DNA of 48,092 nucleotides from a virus, in IMG/VR virus record IMGVR_UViG_3300036852_000677, positions 1-48,092 of that record; one strand, given 5' to 3'. The first letter of the stretch is position 1. Every line of letters begins with the position of its first letter. The notes beneath the pieces were generated by a model that was given only the letters and a program-made list of their open reading frames with translations, made no database searches and had not been told where the DNA came from. Of this stretch, positions 7,061 through 13,304 are shown one piece after another. The position numbers were made by a program, and so were the translations under genes.

Positions 7061-9371
7061 CAGCCCCTCCTCATCCCGAGCCCCAGACCGCGGTGCGCGT
7101 AGCCGAGGGCCGGGTCGACCGCGACCTCGGCCGGCGGCGGCTGGTCGATCGCGTTCGCCAGGTAGCGGAACGCGTCGCAGTTGGACACGAGCACGCCGTT
7201 TGCGACGTACTCGTGAGCGTCGGCGACGGTGAGGTTAAAGACCCTTGCGCGTCCGGTGGCCCGCACGGCCAGCACACGCGGGGGAGCACCGCGCCGTAGG
7301 GAAGAAGCGCTCGACCGTGAACGAGCGGCCGCACTCCGAGCAGACGCGCTGCTCGCGATCCGCGCCCGACGCACGCCGTGCGGCGGCCTTGCAGGCGTTG
7401 GAACAGAAGCGGACACCGTAGGTGCGGCGCGACGCGAACCCCGCGCCGCACCGCTCGCAGGTGTGAGCGATCGGCTGGCGGTTCTCCCAGGAGCGCACGG
7501 CCAGGAGGCGATGCCATTCCCGACCCGCCTCGGAAGCGTGCCATGCAGCGGCGAGCGGGCGGATAGCCGCGGCGTGCTCGCGTAGAGCCTCGGTCTGCTC
7601 GGGGGTCCGCATCGCCGCATGCGCCGCACCGTGGCCGTTCGATGAGAGCGCGACCAAGTTGCCGGGGTCGTTGTTGAGGGAGTCGCCGTCCCGGTGGTGG
7701 ACCTCCCATCCGGCGGGGATGGGGCCGTTGTGGTCGATCCAGAGCTGCCGGTGGAGCGGTTCACGAACGCCGCGCTTCGTGCCGCGCGCCGGCTTGTAGT
7801 AGGCGCGGGAGCCGTGGTCGCGCGCGTTCGGGTAACGGATGTAGTACGTGCCGCCGTACCGGATGACCTCCGACACGACGCCGCTCGGCGAGACGAAACG
7901 CTCGGTGGTGAACACGCCTCAAGTTTATCACCGTATCGCAAAGCGCGCAATGCGGTATAGTCTGCACCGCGGACCCACACCGGATGGTCGCCGGTCCCGG
8001 TTAGGGTGCGGCCGTTCGACAGCTCGACGGTGTAGACCGAAGCGACGGCGGTCTGAGCAGCGGCGACCACAGGCCGCCAGCCCCGGCGGGTCCAGGCCAG
8101 CATCCCCGGCCGGACCCGCTCGATGGGCAGATCCCCCGATGCGGTCGTCACCCGCGTACCGGCCACGAAGCACAGATGGAACTTCTCCTTGTCCTTGATC
8201 TTCTCGGTCGGCTGGCCGGACTCGTCGACCTCGCGGCTGTAGGTGCCGAGCTCGTCGAGCGTGCGGGTGCAGGAGTCGAACACGAAGAGCCGCTGCGCCT
8301 TGAACAGCGCGATCACGCGGTCGATACCCGCCTCGACGTCGGCGACGACCGGCTCGCGCAGCGGCACGCCCTCGTGCTGCCAGTCCATCCGCTGCTGCGT
8401 CTCGGACTTCGAGCCGCCGAACCAGGTCAGCACGTTCAGGCCCTGGGCCTCCGCCTTGGCCGCGGCCGCGTGCTGCGCCGTCGTCTTACCGCCCTCCAGC
8501 GACTCGCGGTAGAGGTAGAAGACGTTCGCCTCCGGGTCGCGGGCCAGCCAGAGGCGCGCCGTGTTGACCGCGCCGAAGTCCACGCCGGCGTGCCGTGGCC
8601 ACTCCGGCGGGATGTCGAACGGGTGCACCTTGTGGCCGCCCTGCTCGCGGTACTCGTCGACGAAATCGCCGTAGATCGCCGCGGCGGGACGGCTGTAGAT
8701 CGCCCGATAGAACAGGTTGAACTTCCAGGCCGGCAGCGTGCGGCGGGCCCGCTCATACTCCTCGCGCGGGAAGGCCGGGTTCTCGATCGAGTCGAACTGG
8801 ATCACGGCGTGGTCCGGGTCGCCCGCACGCCAGCGGTCGTAGACCTGCTGCTTGAGCCAGCCGAGGTTGTACAGGGTCGTGCCGCCGAGCACGCGGCCCC
8901 GGTGGAGCGCGAGCCGCCGCAGGATCGCCTCCCAGGACGCGAGCCGGAAGTCGTCCTGGCCCACCTCGTCGAGCCAGGCGCCCTTAGCGGTCGCCGACTC
9001 GAGCGACTCGCTGTTGTGGGCCGAGCCGAAGATCACGCGCGTCGGCTCGTCGCGGAAAACGAAGACCCGGTCGGCGGCGTGCCAGCTCCCCAGCCGGAGC
9101 GTGTCCCGGAAGAAGCGAAGGAACTCGGGCAGCATCTTCAGCTTGAGCAGCGGGAACGTCGACGTCACGGCGAGGTAGTCGCCCGGGCCGCGGTCCCGGA
9201 TCTCACGCCAGAGCCACAAGGGACCCATCGACGTTTTGCGTTCAGTCAGCCACCCTGGGTTCCCGCGAGCATCCACACGAAGCGTCTCGTGCTCCGCAAT
9301 GCCCGCGCTTGCCCAGGGTGGGGCCGAACGATCAGCCGGCCGTCTGCTCCGACGGTCCACAGGTTCGCCAC
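7060..9371 (-). CDS. terL: Terminase large subunit, interrupted by an intein and an 11-nt insertion
   Basis: DNA-packaging ATPase/nuclease. The N-terminal piece (GTG 9371 to TGA 9246, 41 aa) ends VWMLAGTQGG; the rest resumes as KTSMGPLWLWREI at 9237, so 11 bases (9238-9248) split the Walker A motif AGTQGGKTS and put the halves in different frames. Downstream are a Walker B-like AKGAWLDEVGQDDF, GGTTLYNLGWLK, and the nuclease domain starting HAGVDFGAVNTARLWL. The nuclease end KEKFHL/CDAFRYLANAI is split by an intein at 7180-8172. A Shine-Dalgarno (GGAGAGGGG) precedes GTG 9371. Whether the gene is functional depends on whether the 11-nt insertion is real. Confidence 0.85.
7235..7915 (-). CDS. 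HNH homing endonuclease nested out of frame in the TerL intein, 226 aa
   Basis: Codes in the -1 frame relative to terL. HNH core: RQLWIDHNGPIPAGWEVHHR then DGDSLNNDPGNLVALSSNGH. The C-terminal half has zinc-finger-like pairs, CERCGAGFASRRTYGVRFC and VCSECGRSFTVERFF, probably DNA binding. It has its own promoter (TTGCGC-17-TAAACT) placed so that the GTG at 7915 would be leaderless. It ends about 55 nt before the C-terminal splice junction. It probably drives homing of the intein. Confidence 0.85.
   Translation of the reverse strand: MFTTERFVSPSGVVSEVIRYGGTYYIRYPNARDHGSRAYYKPARGTKRGVREPLHRQLWIDHNGPIPAGWEVHHRDGDSLNNDPGNLVALSSNGHGAAHAAMRTPEQTEALREHAAAIRPLAAAWHASEAGREWHRLLAVRSWENRQPIAHTCERCGAGFASRRTYGVRFCSNACKAAARRASGADREQRVCSECGRSFTVERFFPTARCSPACAGRAGHRTRKGL
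7922..7950 (-). promoter_or_regulatory. Promoter of the nested HNH gene
   Basis: Minus-strand TTGCGC, 17-nt spacer, TAAACT, then six bases and the GTG start. The stretch is AT-rich compared with its surroundings and lies inside the intein coding sequence. It suggests that the endonuclease is transcribed independently of terL. Confidence 0.55.
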
Positions 9372-9438: not shown

Positions 9439-9444
9439 GGCCCG

Positions 9445-10104
9445 GTGGCATCGAACCCCGCCGTGGTGTGTGCATGCGGCTGCGGGGTGACCTTCCCGCT
9501 CTACGACGGACGCGGGCGACCGCGCCGGTTCGCCGGAGCCGGGCACGTCAACCGCACACGGCCCGACCAGCGCCTGCTCGTGACGTGCGAAGCGTGCGGC
9601 GCGTCGATCAGGCGTCCGCGTTGGCATGCCCGGAAGGTCCTGCACCAGTTCTGCGATGGAGCCTGCGCGGGCCGCTGGGCGACCGAGCACGGCACCCGCC
9701 GGGGCACCGCCAACGGCCACTACAACACGATCACCGTGCCGTGCTCGGGATGCGAGGCGCCGGTCAGCAAAGCGGCGAGCCTGATCACCCGCCGCAACGG
9801 CCGCGTCTACTGCCCGGCCTGCATCCCGCTCATCCCCCGCCGGGGGAAGAAGGGCTTCTACGTCGGCTACCCGCCCGAGTTCAGTGCACCGCTGCGGGCG
9901 GCGATCCGCAAACGCGACGGCTACCAGTGCCGCCTCTGCGGCGTGCCCCAGCGCGAAGCCGGGACGCTGCACGTCCACCACATCGACTACGACGTTCGGC
10001 ACAACGCGCCGGCGAACCTGATCAGCTTGTGCCGGGTCTGCCACGGCAAGACGAACTTCGCCCTGCGCGAGTGGACCGCCCGCCTGCAAGCGCTGATGCA
10101 TTAG
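9445..10104 (+). CDS. HNH endonuclease between terS and terL, 219 aa
   Basis: Reads against the head operon from its own promoter. The N-terminal half has several Cys pairs (CACGCG, CEACG, CSGCEAPV, CPACIP), probably zinc fingers. The C-terminal HNH nuclease has RKRDGYQCRLCG, LHVHHIDYDVRHNAPANLI and CRVCHGKTNF. It separates terS from terL and ends 3 nt inside the terS stop region. Free-standing homing endonucleases beside terminase genes are common in phages; the likely target is a terminase gene lacking the insert. Confidence 0.9.
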   Translation: MASNPAVVCACGCGVTFPLYDGRGRPRRFAGAGHVNRTRPDQRLLVTCEACGASIRRPRWHARKVLHQFCDGACAGRWATEHGTRRGTANGHYNTITVPCSGCEAPVSKAASLITRRNGRVYCPACIPLIPRRGKKGFYVGYPPEFSAPLRAAIRKRDGYQCRLCGVPQREAGTLHVHHIDYDVRHNAPANLISLCRVCHGKTNFALREWTARLQALMH

Positions 10105-10694
10105 TCGTCGGCCTTCTCGGCCGGCATCTCGATCACGATCTCCCGGATGGCGATCGGCGCCCCGTCGCGCCCGCTGTGCTCGAGCCGCTTGACCCGCTCG
10201 CCCTTCTCCTTGGCGATGTCGTCGAGCAGCCCGCGCAGCTGCTCGACCTCGGCGGCGTTGAAGCGCTCGATGTCGACCCGCTCGGCGGACTCGCCCGATC
10301 CGATCGACTTCGCATCCTGCACCCAGAGCCGGCCCTCCTCCTCGATCTCGGTGCGCAGCCGCTCGGCGACGCGCTTGAGCACCGTGACGCGCTCGTAGTC
10401 CAGGCCCAGGCCGTCCTCGAGGACCTCGCGGCGGCGGGCGGCGATCGCGGCCTGGGCGTCGGCCGCGGCCGCGTCGGCGATCGCGCGCAGGCGCTCCTGC
10501 CAGCCGAACCGGGCGGACCATTCCTTGAGCGTCGAGAGGAAGCGCGTTGGGGGCGCGGGGCCGGTTTCCCGGTCCGGATCCGGTCCGGATCCGGACCGGG
10601 AAACGTAGTCCGCGGCGAGCTTCTCGAGGCTCCGGCCCTCGCCGAGCGCGAGGTAGTCGGCCCAGGCCTGCCGGGCCCGGCTGGTCTCGCGCAT
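10101..10694 (-). CDS. Terminase small subunit-like protein, 197 aa
   Basis: Start ATG 10694 is coupled by TGATG to a 15-codon mini-ORF upstream. The N-terminus (RARQAWADYLALGEGRSLEK...FLSTLKEWSARFGWQERLR) matches the helix-turn-helix style of TerS-type proteins, which recognise the packaging site. A long helical region follows. It precedes terL, the normal order. A 41-bp perfect palindrome lies within the codons for the DNA-binding region. The exact TerS family is not established. Confidence 0.7.
   Translation of the reverse strand: MRETSRARQAWADYLALGEGRSLEKLAADYVSRSGSGPDPDRETGPAPPTRFLSTLKEWSARFGWQERLRAIADAAAADAQAAIAARRREVLEDGLGLDYERVTVLKRVAERLRTEIEEEGRLWVQDAKSIGSGESAERVDIERFNAAEVEQLRGLLDDIAKEKGERVKRLEHSGRDGAPIAIREIVIEMPAEKADD
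10564..10604. repeat. 41-bp perfect palindrome inside terS
   Basis: Two 20-base arms (GTTTCCCGGTCCGGATCCGG and its reverse complement) flank a single central T at 10584. It contains two GGATCC cores and codes for part of a Ser/Gly/Asp/Pro-rich linker in the small terminase. Packaging sites often lie in terS, so a pac or cos function is possible but not shown. Confidence 0.9.
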
Positions 10695-10741
10695 CAGACG
10701 GCAACGACCGGAGCCGTACCGGATCCGCACCGGCCGGCCAT
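10694..10741 (-). CDS. Possible 15-aa coupling ORF before terS
   Basis: ATG 10741 shares its A with the stop of the upstream 188-aa gene, and its own TGA shares its A with the terS ATG. It encodes MAGRCGSGTAPVVAV. It may only carry ribosomes from one gene to the next; no function is claimed. Confidence 0.35.
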   Translation of the reverse strand: MAGRCGSGTAPVVAV

Positions 10742-11307
10742 CACTCGCGCTCCAGCTCCACGGCCCGCCGCTCCAGCTCGTCGGGGCCAAGGCTGGCTAG
10801 GTCCACCTCCGGAATGAGCCGCCGCGCCCGTTGGAGGATCAGCCGCCAGTCGTCGGCCTCGTCGGCGGAGGCGGGCATCGGCGACCGCCGCGCGGCCTGG
10901 AGCGCCAACTCGGCCCGCATCTCCGCCGCCCGGCGCCGCAGGAGCGCGGCCTGGTACGTCCGGAACTTGCGCTCGATCCCGTCCAGCCGGCTCTTCTCGT
11001 CGGCCTGCTTCTGCGCGACGGCGCGCTCGGTGAAGGCCTCGGCCCGTGCCTGCTCGGACGCCTCGGCGGCCGCGAGCAGCCCGACCAGCTCGCGCCGGCG
11101 GGCGTCGACCGCGACGATCCGCTCCTCGTGCAGGCGGGCGCCCGTCTCGTCCCGTCGCGCGAGGGCGTCGCGCAGGTTGGCGCGCGCGGTGGCCAGGTCC
11201 CGCTCGGCCGTCTGCAGGGCACCACGGAGCTCGTCCACCGTCATCGGCTGCGGCAGCGGGTGGCCGTACATCCCCCGCACGACCCGCGAGAACAGTCCTT
11301 CCGTCAC
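10741..11307 (-). CDS. Coiled-coil protein upstream of terS, 188 aa
   Basis: GTG 11307 is chosen because the sequence before it lies in a hairpin-rich region that does not look coding. After a short hydrophobic start (MTEGLFSRVVRGMYG) nearly the whole protein is a charged Ala/Arg/Glu helix (LRGALQTAERDLATARANLR onwards), a likely coiled coil. It is the first gene of the head operon. Not assigned to a family. Confidence 0.6.
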   Translation of the reverse strand: MTEGLFSRVVRGMYGHPLPQPMTVDELRGALQTAERDLATARANLRDALARRDETGARLHEERIVAVDARRRELVGLLAAAEASEQARAEAFTERAVAQKQADEKSRLDGIERKFRTYQAALLRRRAAEMRAELALQAARRSPMPASADEADDWRLILQRARRLIPEVDLASLGPDELERRAVELERE

Positions 11308-11326
11308 AGGACGTGGCTCAAGGACG

Positions 11327-11682
11327 CCCCCGGATTCATCCGGGGGATCAATTGAGCCGTGGCCTCGCAAGGCCAGACGCGTCCTGCACCGATGTGCAAC
11401 CGGACCCCGACCGCCGGCGCGTACACTGAGCGCGGCGCTGAAGGCACCCTCTCGGGGGTCAACGGTTGGGCGCTATTTTCCAACTGAATACCGGGGGTTG
11501 AGCCGAGAAACGCTTCGGCTCGTAAAGTGTTCAAGCTCTGGGCTCCTTCGGGGGTTCGGTACCCACCTTCGCGGGTTGGTGGCGCAAGCCACGAATCCGG
11601 GCCGGCTGTCAGGCGGCCGTACGCGTCACGATGGCAGGAACGCCTGCCGGAGTAGATGCAAGCTCCTGGATTCATCCGGGAG
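11327..11682 (+). ncRNA. Candidate large structured RNA (array of about 12 hairpins)
   Basis: No convincing gene fits here. The plus strand carries successive hairpins: 11327-11346, 11360-11375, 11385-11398, 11446-11459 (CTCG loop), 11465-11484, 11500-11521, 11542-11555 (TTCG loop), 11561-11576, 11579-11592 (GCAA loop), 11600-11618, 11633-11648 and 11663-11682. UUCG and GCAA tetraloops favour the plus strand as the RNA. The first and last hairpins share GGATTCATCCGGG, so they may be the ends of one unit. The family is unknown: I do not see group I or tmRNA core motifs, and no IscB/TnpB gene adjoins it. Confidence 0.5.
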
Positions 11683-11736
11683 TACCTGACACGATCTCCT
11701 TTACCTCACAGGCTAACAATTCCCGGACCAGGTTGT

Positions 11737-11955
11737 TCAGCCCGGGTGCAGCTCGCGCATGTGCCGGTCGTAGGCGGCCCGGCTCCGCGGCAGCGTGCTC
11801 GCGTCGTCGCCGCGCATCGCGCCCGCCAGCGCGCAGAACCTGCAGCAGAACGCGAGGCCGCCGCCGTGGACAGCGAAGATCACCGGTTCGCGCCAGCGCA
11901 GGTGCGGCCAGCGGCGTTCGAGCTCGGCGTCGGTCGGCGGACGCAGCCGGGTCAC
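11737..11955 (-). CDS. Small C2H2-type zinc-finger protein, 72 aa
   Basis: GTG 11955. A WPHLRWREPVIFAVHG region leads into CCRFCALAGAMRG and ends with YDRHMRELHPG, a C..C plus H...H pattern. Encoded divergently from the integrase with 35 nt between starts, so the two may share control. Function unknown, possibly DNA binding. Confidence 0.6.
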   Translation of the reverse strand: MTRLRPPTDAELERRWPHLRWREPVIFAVHGGGLAFCCRFCALAGAMRGDDASTLPRSRAAYDRHMRELHPG

Positions 11956-11990
11956 CGGGCCGGAGTCTCCTGTGGCATGATGAGCGCGCC

Positions 11991-13304
11991 GTGCCGGGCC
12001 AGCCACCGCCTGCCGTCGACCCGATCAGCGTCATGCTGCTCCTGCTCGCCTGGCGCGACGGCCAGCACCCGACCCGGCGCCGGCGACCGGGCGAAGGCAG
12101 CGTGCGCCGGATCGTCGACGCGCACCGCGGCCGGATCGTCTTCCGGACCCGCTACAAGGACCACGACGGCCCCTCCTGGTCGGTGCGCCTGGACCTCGAG
12201 CCCACCGCCCGCGCGCGCGCCGAAGCGGCCGCCCGCACCCGCGCCGAGGCCGCGCTCCTCGATCTGCGCCGCCGCGTCGACCAGGGCGAGAGTCCCAGCC
12301 CGCGCGCCGAGCGGCGCACGGTCGGCCAGGCCGTCGCGGCCTTCCTGGCCGAGGCCGAGGCCAGCCGCACCCCGACGACGCTGCGCACCTACCGCCACTG
12401 GTGCCGGCGCATCGCCGAGTCCCCGCTCTCCCGGGTGGCGCTCCGGGACGTGCGCCGGGCCGACGTCGCGTCCTGGCTCGGCCGGCTGCGGAGCGCCGGC
12501 GAGACCACGGGGGACCGCACCGGCGCCTTCGCTCGCCTGTGCCAGGTGTTCCGGCGCGAGCTGGCCGAGAACGCCGAGCTGCACAACCTGCGGGCCGTGC
12601 TCGACGCCGCGCGCACGCTCCGGCCCGGTCACCAGCCGGCCGAGACGCGGCCCTTCTCGGCCGAGGAGGCGCGGCTGCTGATCGCGGCCGGGCGCGCGGC
12701 CCCGGTGCTCGACGGCGTGCCGATCGGCCCGATCGTCGCGGTCTGCCTGTACGCCAAGACCCGGATCGCCGAGGCCTGCGGGCTGCGCTGGCGCGACGTC
12801 GACGCCTTCGGCGAGCGGATCAGCCTCGTGCAGCAGATCGGCCACCTGAGCGGGGAGCCCGAGGACGTCAAGGGCAAGCGCGCCGTGACGCTGCCCGTCG
12901 ACCGCGACCTGATCGCGCTGCTGGTGGACTGGCGCCGCCTCGAGCAGGGACGCGGCCGGCGCTGCCTGCCCGACGAGCTCGTCTTCACCGACGCCAAGAT
13001 GGGCGGTCGGGCGGTCACCTACGGACGGCTGCGGCCCTCCTTGCTCACCCTGACCGAGCGGGCCGGGCTCGAGCCGAGCGGCGCGAGCCACCGCCTCCGG
13101 CACGCCTCGGCCATGCTCAGCCTGGACGCCGGGACCCCGACGCCGGTCCTGCAGCGGCAGATGCGCCACGCCAACCTCGCCACGACGGCCGGCTACCTGC
13201 ACGCCGACGAGCCGCTCTCCCGGCGGGACGCGCGGGCCGTCGGCGAACGGCTCCGCTTCGGTGCGGCGGAGCCGCATGTCGGGGACACCCGGGAGGACGC
13301 TTAG
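11991..13304 (+). CDS. int: Tyrosine integrase, 437 aa
   Basis: Catalyses site-specific integration. The N-terminus has an arm-type domain (GEGSVRRIVDAHRGRIVFRT) and a helical core-binding domain (TVGQAVAAFLAEAEASRT). The catalytic domain has Arg in KTRIAEACGLRWRDVD, HRLRHA (His and Arg), MRHANLATT (His) and the nucleophile in AGYLHADEP. GTG 11991 follows a CATGAT -10-like element by 9 nt; an ATG at 12030 is the alternative start. A terminator and a repeat-rich candidate attP follow the gene, and an excisionase-like gene lies beyond on the opposite strand. Confidence 0.92.
   Translation: MPGQPPPAVDPISVMLLLLAWRDGQHPTRRRRPGEGSVRRIVDAHRGRIVFRTRYKDHDGPSWSVRLDLEPTARARAEAAARTRAEAALLDLRRRVDQGESPSPRAERRTVGQAVAAFLAEAEASRTPTTLRTYRHWCRRIAESPLSRVALRDVRRADVASWLGRLRSAGETTGDRTGAFARLCQVFRRELAENAELHNLRAVLDAARTLRPGHQPAETRPFSAEEARLLIAAGRAAPVLDGVPIGPIVAVCLYAKTRIAEACGLRWRDVDAFGERISLVQQIGHLSGEPEDVKGKRAVTLPVDRDLIALLVDWRRLEQGRGRRCLPDELVFTDAKMGGRAVTYGRLRPSLLTLTERAGLEPSGASHRLRHASAMLSLDAGTPTPVLQRQMRHANLATTAGYLHADEPLSRRDARAVGERLRFGAAEPHVGDTREDA

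Follow-up and report, generated by a model that had tools for sequence, protein, structure and literature searches.

We consider it likely that the hairpin array described here is a non-autonomous IS200/IS605 element resembling palindrome-associated transposable elements (PATEs), resident in a phage, which makes its own guide RNA for TnpB acting in trans and is moved by TnpA acting in trans. The transposon ends, the TAM-like flank, the boundaries in relatives, the lack of tnpA and tnpB, a covarying omegaRNA scaffold, and a covarying 5' domain are shown by sequence; transcription, TnpB binding, cleavage, and excision by TnpA are inferred. The window, by which we mean the whole 48,092-base IMG/VR virus record analyzed (approximately 72% GC), contains the following features.

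10741–11307, minus strand: interrupted gene, with its GTG start directly beside the element and its Shine–Dalgarno motif, AAAGGAG, across the element at 11696–11702
11303–11307, plus strand: TAM-like left flank GTCAC, outside the element; the minus strand of GTCAC includes the GTG start of gene 11307–10741
11308–11690, plus strand: the complete element, 383 nt, of IS200/IS605 type, non-autonomous and without a protein gene (end hairpins, boundaries by analogy, joined-flank test)
11315–11358, plus strand: left end (LE), outer stem GGCTCAA/TTGAGCC enclosing hairpin CCCCCGGATTCATCCGGGGG (11327–11346)
11422–11427, plus strand: candidate −10 box TACACT, weak in the window copy
11425–11535, plus strand: conserved 5' RNA domain of the tnpB-less family, approximately 110 nt, with a helix (11485–11491/11527–11533) and an inner hairpin (11500–11521); model R2
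11536–11589, plus strand: linker hairpins including GTGGC-GCAA-GCCAC (11579–11592), variable between members
11590–11690, plus strand: omegaRNA-like (TnpB guide RNA) 3' scaffold; in Chloroflexota genomes model R1 finds its equivalent immediately after tnpB
11608–11613, plus strand: GTCAGG in a hairpin loop, 5' strand of a pseudoknot pairing with 11685–11690, approximately 70 nt downstream
11663–11682, plus strand: right-end (RE) hairpin CTCCTGGATTCATCCGGGAG; a 34-nt stretch here matches, at 85%, the RE of L098, a tnpB element from Chloroflexota
11685–11690, plus strand: CCTGAC, right end of the element and 3' strand of the pseudoknot
11691–11706, plus strand: inferred guide of 16 nt read from flanking DNA, by analogy with ISDra2 (PMC8612924); no RNA data

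Phage Context and Non-coding Character of the Array

The minus strand of the window encodes a portal protein, a large terminase with an intein, a homolog of the gene immediately preceding the terminase in L016 and L021, and the small gene 10741–11307, followed by the array, beyond which lie a small unknown minus-strand gene (11737–12006) and a plus-strand integrase gene ending at 13304. By record title, 14 of the 21 loci with terminase relatives in genome contigs are labelled Chloroflexota. No viral relatives were found for the protein neighbors 11737–12006 and 10741–11244 or for the integrase. Three further observations concern the terminase region. The intein (7191–8184, minus strand) matches Hint_2 and Intein_splicing only weakly, under the curated cut-offs; the terminase frame is broken at the Walker A motif (9230–9260, minus strand) where relatives are continuous, which could reflect genuine interruption of the gene, misassembly, or recoding; and an HNH-type endonuclease frame, recognized by eye, occupies approximately 9440–10104 on the opposite (plus) strand, separating the terminase from the gene upstream of it, with no counterpart in L016.

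The plus strand of 11300–11700 folds at −203.2 kcal/mol compared with −169.1 ± 6.2 kcal/mol for 100 dinucleotide shuffles (z −5.5, 0/100), and the minus strand of the array folds less strongly (z −2.9). In a coarse 200-nt folding scan, two segments from the array come 5th and 14th out of 800 for energy excess; folding energy by itself is strong and not unique in the window. Strong folding on both strands was also seen at 10561–10760 (z −4.3 and −2.9), at the start of the gene before the terminase. Codon-position GC is flat over approximately 11300–11750, unlike the periodic signal in both flanks, so we conclude that this stretch is non-coding; open reading frames crossing the array have no Pfam match. 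Rfam covariance models, including those for GOLLD, ROOL, HEARO, group I and II introns, and the sotRNAs, gave no match in the window at gathering score, and a single chance-level match in the array region at E up to 10.

These results bear on the original prediction, which described about 12 near-perfect hairpins at 11327–11682, end hairpins sharing GGATTCATCCGGG, and no convincing open reading frame. The hairpins and the repeat are present at those places (the figure of 12 was not individually recounted) and the absence of a convincing reading frame held; the span held in part, the element being slightly wider. It proposed either a structured RNA that is expressed or a mobile element, non-autonomous and ending in hairpins. 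The second identity is upheld, and a structured RNA is very probably encoded by it, with transcription inferred.

Transposon Ends and Insertion Site

TTCA-loop hairpins of at least 7 bp occur only twice in the 48 kb, both strands scanned, one at each array end and both in the same orientation, as at the ends of autonomous elements. An exact viral scan for CCCCGGATTCATCCGGGG returned three loci. In L089 this hairpin lies right behind a C-terminal remnant of tnpB, and in L087 it lies upstream of a complete tnpB; L087 bears the related hairpin GCCTCCGACTTCAGTCGGGGG at its own right end. The LE hairpin sequence of the window is identical in both. The third match, L088, appears due to chance. In Chloroflexota locus L098, tnpB is followed by GAAGCTCCCGGATTCATCCGGGAGAGTTGTCAC, compared with CAAGCTCCTGGATTCATCCGGGAGTACCTGACAC in the window; two other genome matches to the RE pattern (L097 and L099) look unrelated, leaving L098 as the only tnpB element of the three. 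The LE layout is common to the window, L087, and L098, with outer stems GGCTCAA/TTGAGCC, GTCGTT/AACGAC, and GGCCA/TGGCC, respectively (pairings by eye). Based on the matches in L089, L087, and L098, the TTCA pair, and the common outer stem, we assign the two array-end hairpins as LE and RE of an IS200/IS605-type element, whose end hairpins match those of tnpB elements exactly or almost exactly. As a separate observation, in L089 (3280–3400) a portal-like phage gene ends immediately next to the tnpB 3' remnant and RE, which may be a further phage-borne remnant of non-autonomous type.

The domains of tnpA and tnpB (PF01797 and PF07282) were not detected in the window, and tblastn of the window with two TnpB queries gave nothing below E 0.8. 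Both protein families are present in 10/10 cellular genomes tested that carry the element.

We set the boundaries at 11308 and 11690 by analogy with two near-identical copies in unrelated flanks, L148 and L149, found in two genomes. Over the first 230 nt the two copies agree at 99.6%, and their last 60 nt do not differ at all, with identity starting at CTCAT|AGATG and stopping at CTGAC, and their 100-nt flanks are 28% and 31% identical. In L149 a foreign stretch replaces the pseudoknot hairpin downstream of the 5' domain (element of 401 nt vs 351 nt in L148). TCA[CT] precedes the left end in 18/18 members having both RNA parts (site chosen by eye). Sharp ends are thus demonstrated in L148/L149 and the insertion motif in the 18 members; for the window copy the joined-flank test alone is available.

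When the flanks are joined after GTCAC (11307) and before ACGATC (11691), the minus strand reads GGTAAAGGAGATCGT and then GTGACGGAAGGA, placing a Shine–Dalgarno motif 5 nt ahead of the GTG that opens the frame of gene 11307–10741, which has a strong GC3 bias. With the element in place no such motif precedes this GTG, and AAAGGAG-N4-9-NTG occurs once in the unjoined window, both strands counted together. The element thus very likely landed between the ribosome-binding site and start codon of this gene. A natural empty allele was not found, as the joined flank matches none of 199 loci compared. The inferred 16-nt guide has no second site in the window at 13/16 matching.

Relatives of the Element

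Similarity searches with the array DNA were uninformative: there was no match in phage and plasmid collections, one 23-nt blastn match in 6 genomes, and short chance-like matches in 6/400 Chloroflexota genomes. A paired-motif viral scan gave 4 matches, all unrelated repeats or coding sequence, a viral scan for the 5'-domain motif gave none, and the first MAFFT runs aligned poorly, both for three RE sequences and for entire elements. In genome G098, the RE of tnpB-less element L139 equals that of tnpB element L103 over 27/27 nt, and its LE equals that of tnpB element L191 over 20/20 nt. Another genome, G369 (13.7 Mb), has a very large tnpB load, with 150/150 scored candidates (of 525) matching the TnpB zinc ribbon.

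An omegaRNA-like 3' Scaffold With a Covarying Pseudoknot

A covariance model (R1) was built from window positions 11590–11692 alone, without the pseudoknot. At E up to 0.01 it finds 28 matches in 23/400 Chloroflexota genomes, some at loci that have tnpB and others at loci that lack it. When two TnpB proteins were used as tblastn queries, tnpB was located directly upstream in 7 of these 28 (L100, L101, L103, L110, L123, L124, and L126); L112 also has a tnpB match, distant from and opposite to its R1 match. Later counts exclude L109 and L111, which lack the RE tail and appear chance-like, and L115–L122, which were not inspected.

The pseudoknot between GTCAGG and CCTGAC is complete (6/6 pairs) in 28 of 34 usable rows by hand count and incomplete in the remaining 6, five of 39 rows having been left out (two window matches at the left end, the L087 left end, L101:501, and the partial L155). 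Its 5' strands are of nine kinds, ending AGG, ATG, AGA, AAG, ATA, AAT, AAC, and ATC, plus a GTAAAC type. Over all 39 rows, 91.7% of cells are paired vs 74.6 ± 1.9 when shuffled, and covariation is 0.312 vs 0.083 ± 0.018, a value reached by 0/500 shuffles. Kinship alone can push covariation above shuffles; the slid controls (0.022–0.063) argue against this for the pseudoknot. The pseudoknot is retained in tnpB-less copies and covaries alike in copies with and without tnpB.

The 3' approximately 100 nt are therefore a scaffold of the TnpB guide-RNA (omegaRNA/reRNA) type as shown by sequence, with TnpB binding and cleavage inferred. The original prediction recognized no diagnostic guide-RNA parts, which did not hold given the RE hairpin known beside tnpB in relatives, the omegaRNA 3'-terminal pseudoknot, and the TAM-like flank. 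Since the locus has no tnpB, it does not fit the definition of an omegaRNA as encoded by the tnpB 3' end plus RE, and we call it omegaRNA-like, without a nuclease gene, rather than a canonical cis omegaRNA.

A Conserved 5' RNA Domain and a Candidate Promoter

Upstream of the scaffold, blastn matched window positions 11463–11538 to L108 (E 5e-6), and inspection showed sequence upstream of R1 in common with the window at other tnpB-less loci (L104–L107, L125, and L127). A model of this 5' domain (R2) was built from five sequences, the window included, so the 80-bit score of the window is not independent. R2 is found in 16/400 Chloroflexota genomes (48 listed matches, as many as 7 in a single genome), in 8/47 genomes of one class (20 matches), which includes a 13.7-Mb genome and which we take to be possibly Ktedonobacteria, and in 2/201 genomes of the Armatimonadetes phylum, the phylum of G003, whose locus L070 bears that name in its title. 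The proposal of a phage RNA family consequently failed, with copies in Chloroflexota and Armatimonadetes-phylum genomes and the 5' domain in 0/50 terminase-related phage records.

R1 lies directly downstream of R2 in 18 of 23 distinct R2 loci (window counted), and the other five have no R1 match. By tblastn with two queries, tnpB was found in 0/28 loci (L128–L155); conversely, R2 was beside tnpB in 0/22 tnpB loci and in 0/9 tnpB-bearing loci of a separate set. Several loci are duplicates (L105=L132, L106=L129, L125=L128, L127=L136, and L107=L143).

In a sequence-only alignment of 23 sequences, 13/14 pairs of the long helix are changed on both sides, and covariation of the helix is 0.677 vs 0.230 ± 0.022 (0/500), with slid controls at most 0.151. 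RNAalifold, unaided, recovers the helix with double changes in 12/15 pairs; the resulting fold has a modest energy (−17.9 kcal/mol) and lacks the first hairpin, where the alignment is a bad fit. This alignment (A8) omits L104, L107/L143, L134, L135, L142, L144, and L146 as poor or divergent fits, L149 as a near-duplicate of L148, and L198–L200, which were found later. The approximately 110-nt 5' domain is a structured RNA found in neither Rfam nor the tnpB loci tested.

A TAnnnT hexamer occupies one fixed place ahead of the 5' domain in 18/30 aligned sequences, being exactly TATACT in 8, and 4/30 have no such hexamer nearby. The fixed position suggests a dedicated promoter inside the tnpB-less elements, in the absence of transcript data.

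Proposed Mechanism and Rival Explanations

In our preferred reading, the internal promoter would produce an RNA of approximately 260 nt running through the right end into flanking DNA, which would become the guide. The TnpA (Y1 transposase) of the host would move the element as single-stranded DNA via both end hairpins, host TnpB with the element RNA would cut the emptied site (GTCAC and then the guide sequence), and repair would restore the element. In a phage, the TnpB cut would favor spread into related phages without the insertion. This reading is limited by the lack of transcript data, the lack of TnpB on the contig, an unidentified host, and the fact that TnpB binding to an RNA with the 5' domain is inferred.

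A bolder reading, which we consider possible but less likely than not, is that these are bacterial RNA-only homing elements that have discarded both proteins and kept the ends, promoter, and two-domain guide RNA. The 5' domain would select or improve TnpB (or TnpA) acting in trans, and a phage-borne guide would direct host TnpB against rival phages without the insertion, such that the element homes through phage populations and its carrier gains. TnpB guide RNAs have so far been described as part of the tnpB transcript. If true, a guide encoded without a nuclease would mean that RNA-guided transposon maintenance can be parasitized in trans, and such elements would be natural stand-alone guide RNAs, with a layout like the separate guide and nuclease of CRISPR. 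TnpB is related, and probably ancestral, to the Cas12 enzymes used in gene editing. The conserved multi-copy family defines a new structured RNA domain.

The element could instead be a decaying internal-deletion derivative, that is, a tnpB element with its genes lost, a functionless RNA, and at most mobility through TnpA in trans. A PATE-like element of Halanaerobium that keeps only its ends and the last 58 nt of tnpB (PMC7290912) provides a precedent, and the weak promoter of the window copy is compatible with decay. We regard this as unlikely: the 5' domain lies beside no tnpB tested, it is conserved with compensatory changes in 23 sequences, and tnpB-less copies keep the pseudoknot. We consider similarly unlikely an RNA that acts on TnpA or host genes, in regulation or in the control of transposition, and that retains a TnpB-like 3' end only as a transposition end and guides no TnpB. 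In its favor, the RE must stay conserved for TnpA regardless, an IS200 tnpA transcript is reported to yield a regulatory RNA in Salmonella (PMC12594629), and the 5' domain has no known role; however, the RE hairpin does not include the pseudoknot, whose covariation is alike with and without tnpB, and recognition of DNA ends does not by itself account for this.

A stand-alone ornate phage RNA of the GOLLD or ROOL type, an intron, or a replication origin would fit the phage location and dense folding. This possibility is all but excluded by the absence of an Rfam match, by bacterial copies with transposon boundaries, and by the absence from all 50 related phage records; intron, packaging-RNA, and origin ideas were dropped given the lack of an Rfam signal and the presence of transposon ends.

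Comparison With Known Systems

One close parallel is the TnpB omegaRNA/reRNA, as in ISDra2 and the sotRNAs of Halobacteria (RF02656 and RF02657). In the published ISDra2 omegaRNA structure, a pseudoknot forms between the scaffold bases that immediately precede the guide and a segment farther upstream (PMC10097598), and ISDra2 TnpB requires a TAM and a guide-matching target, with donor-joint cutting proposed to let repair reinstate the transposon (PMC8612924). The window RNA shares with these systems a 3' scaffold that ends at the RE, a pseudoknot joining the 3' end to a segment farther upstream, a guide predicted to come from the flank, and a TAM-like motif at the LE (PMC8612924, PMC10097598, PMC12558985). 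It differs in lying outside any tnpB gene, in having its own candidate promoter and an approximately 110-nt 5' domain, and in matching no Rfam family.

PATEs are ends-only IS200/IS605 derivatives (PMC7290912) and resemble the window element in being short, having only IS200/IS605 ends, and being mobilized in trans, the last inferred for the window element. A PATE carried by the archaeal virus HRTV-DL1 is transcribed at a high level, and the authors of that study cite a Halobacterium PATE active as a non-coding RNA (PMC10544981); a virus-borne, expressed PATE is therefore not new. Unlike PATEs, the window element belongs to an RNA family that is conserved in genomes of Chloroflexota and of the Armatimonadetes phylum and has a 5' domain of its own, although the sequence and structure of archaeal PATE RNA were not compared, and a bacterial tnpB-less family with such a 5' domain was not found in the open-access literature searched. 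Finally, the IS607 TnpB with a reRNA derived from RAGATH-18, in which the RNA is described as co-occurring stably with an upstream tnpB (PMC11061315), likewise ties a structured guide RNA to a transposon nuclease, whereas the ends of the window element are of the IS200/IS605 type.
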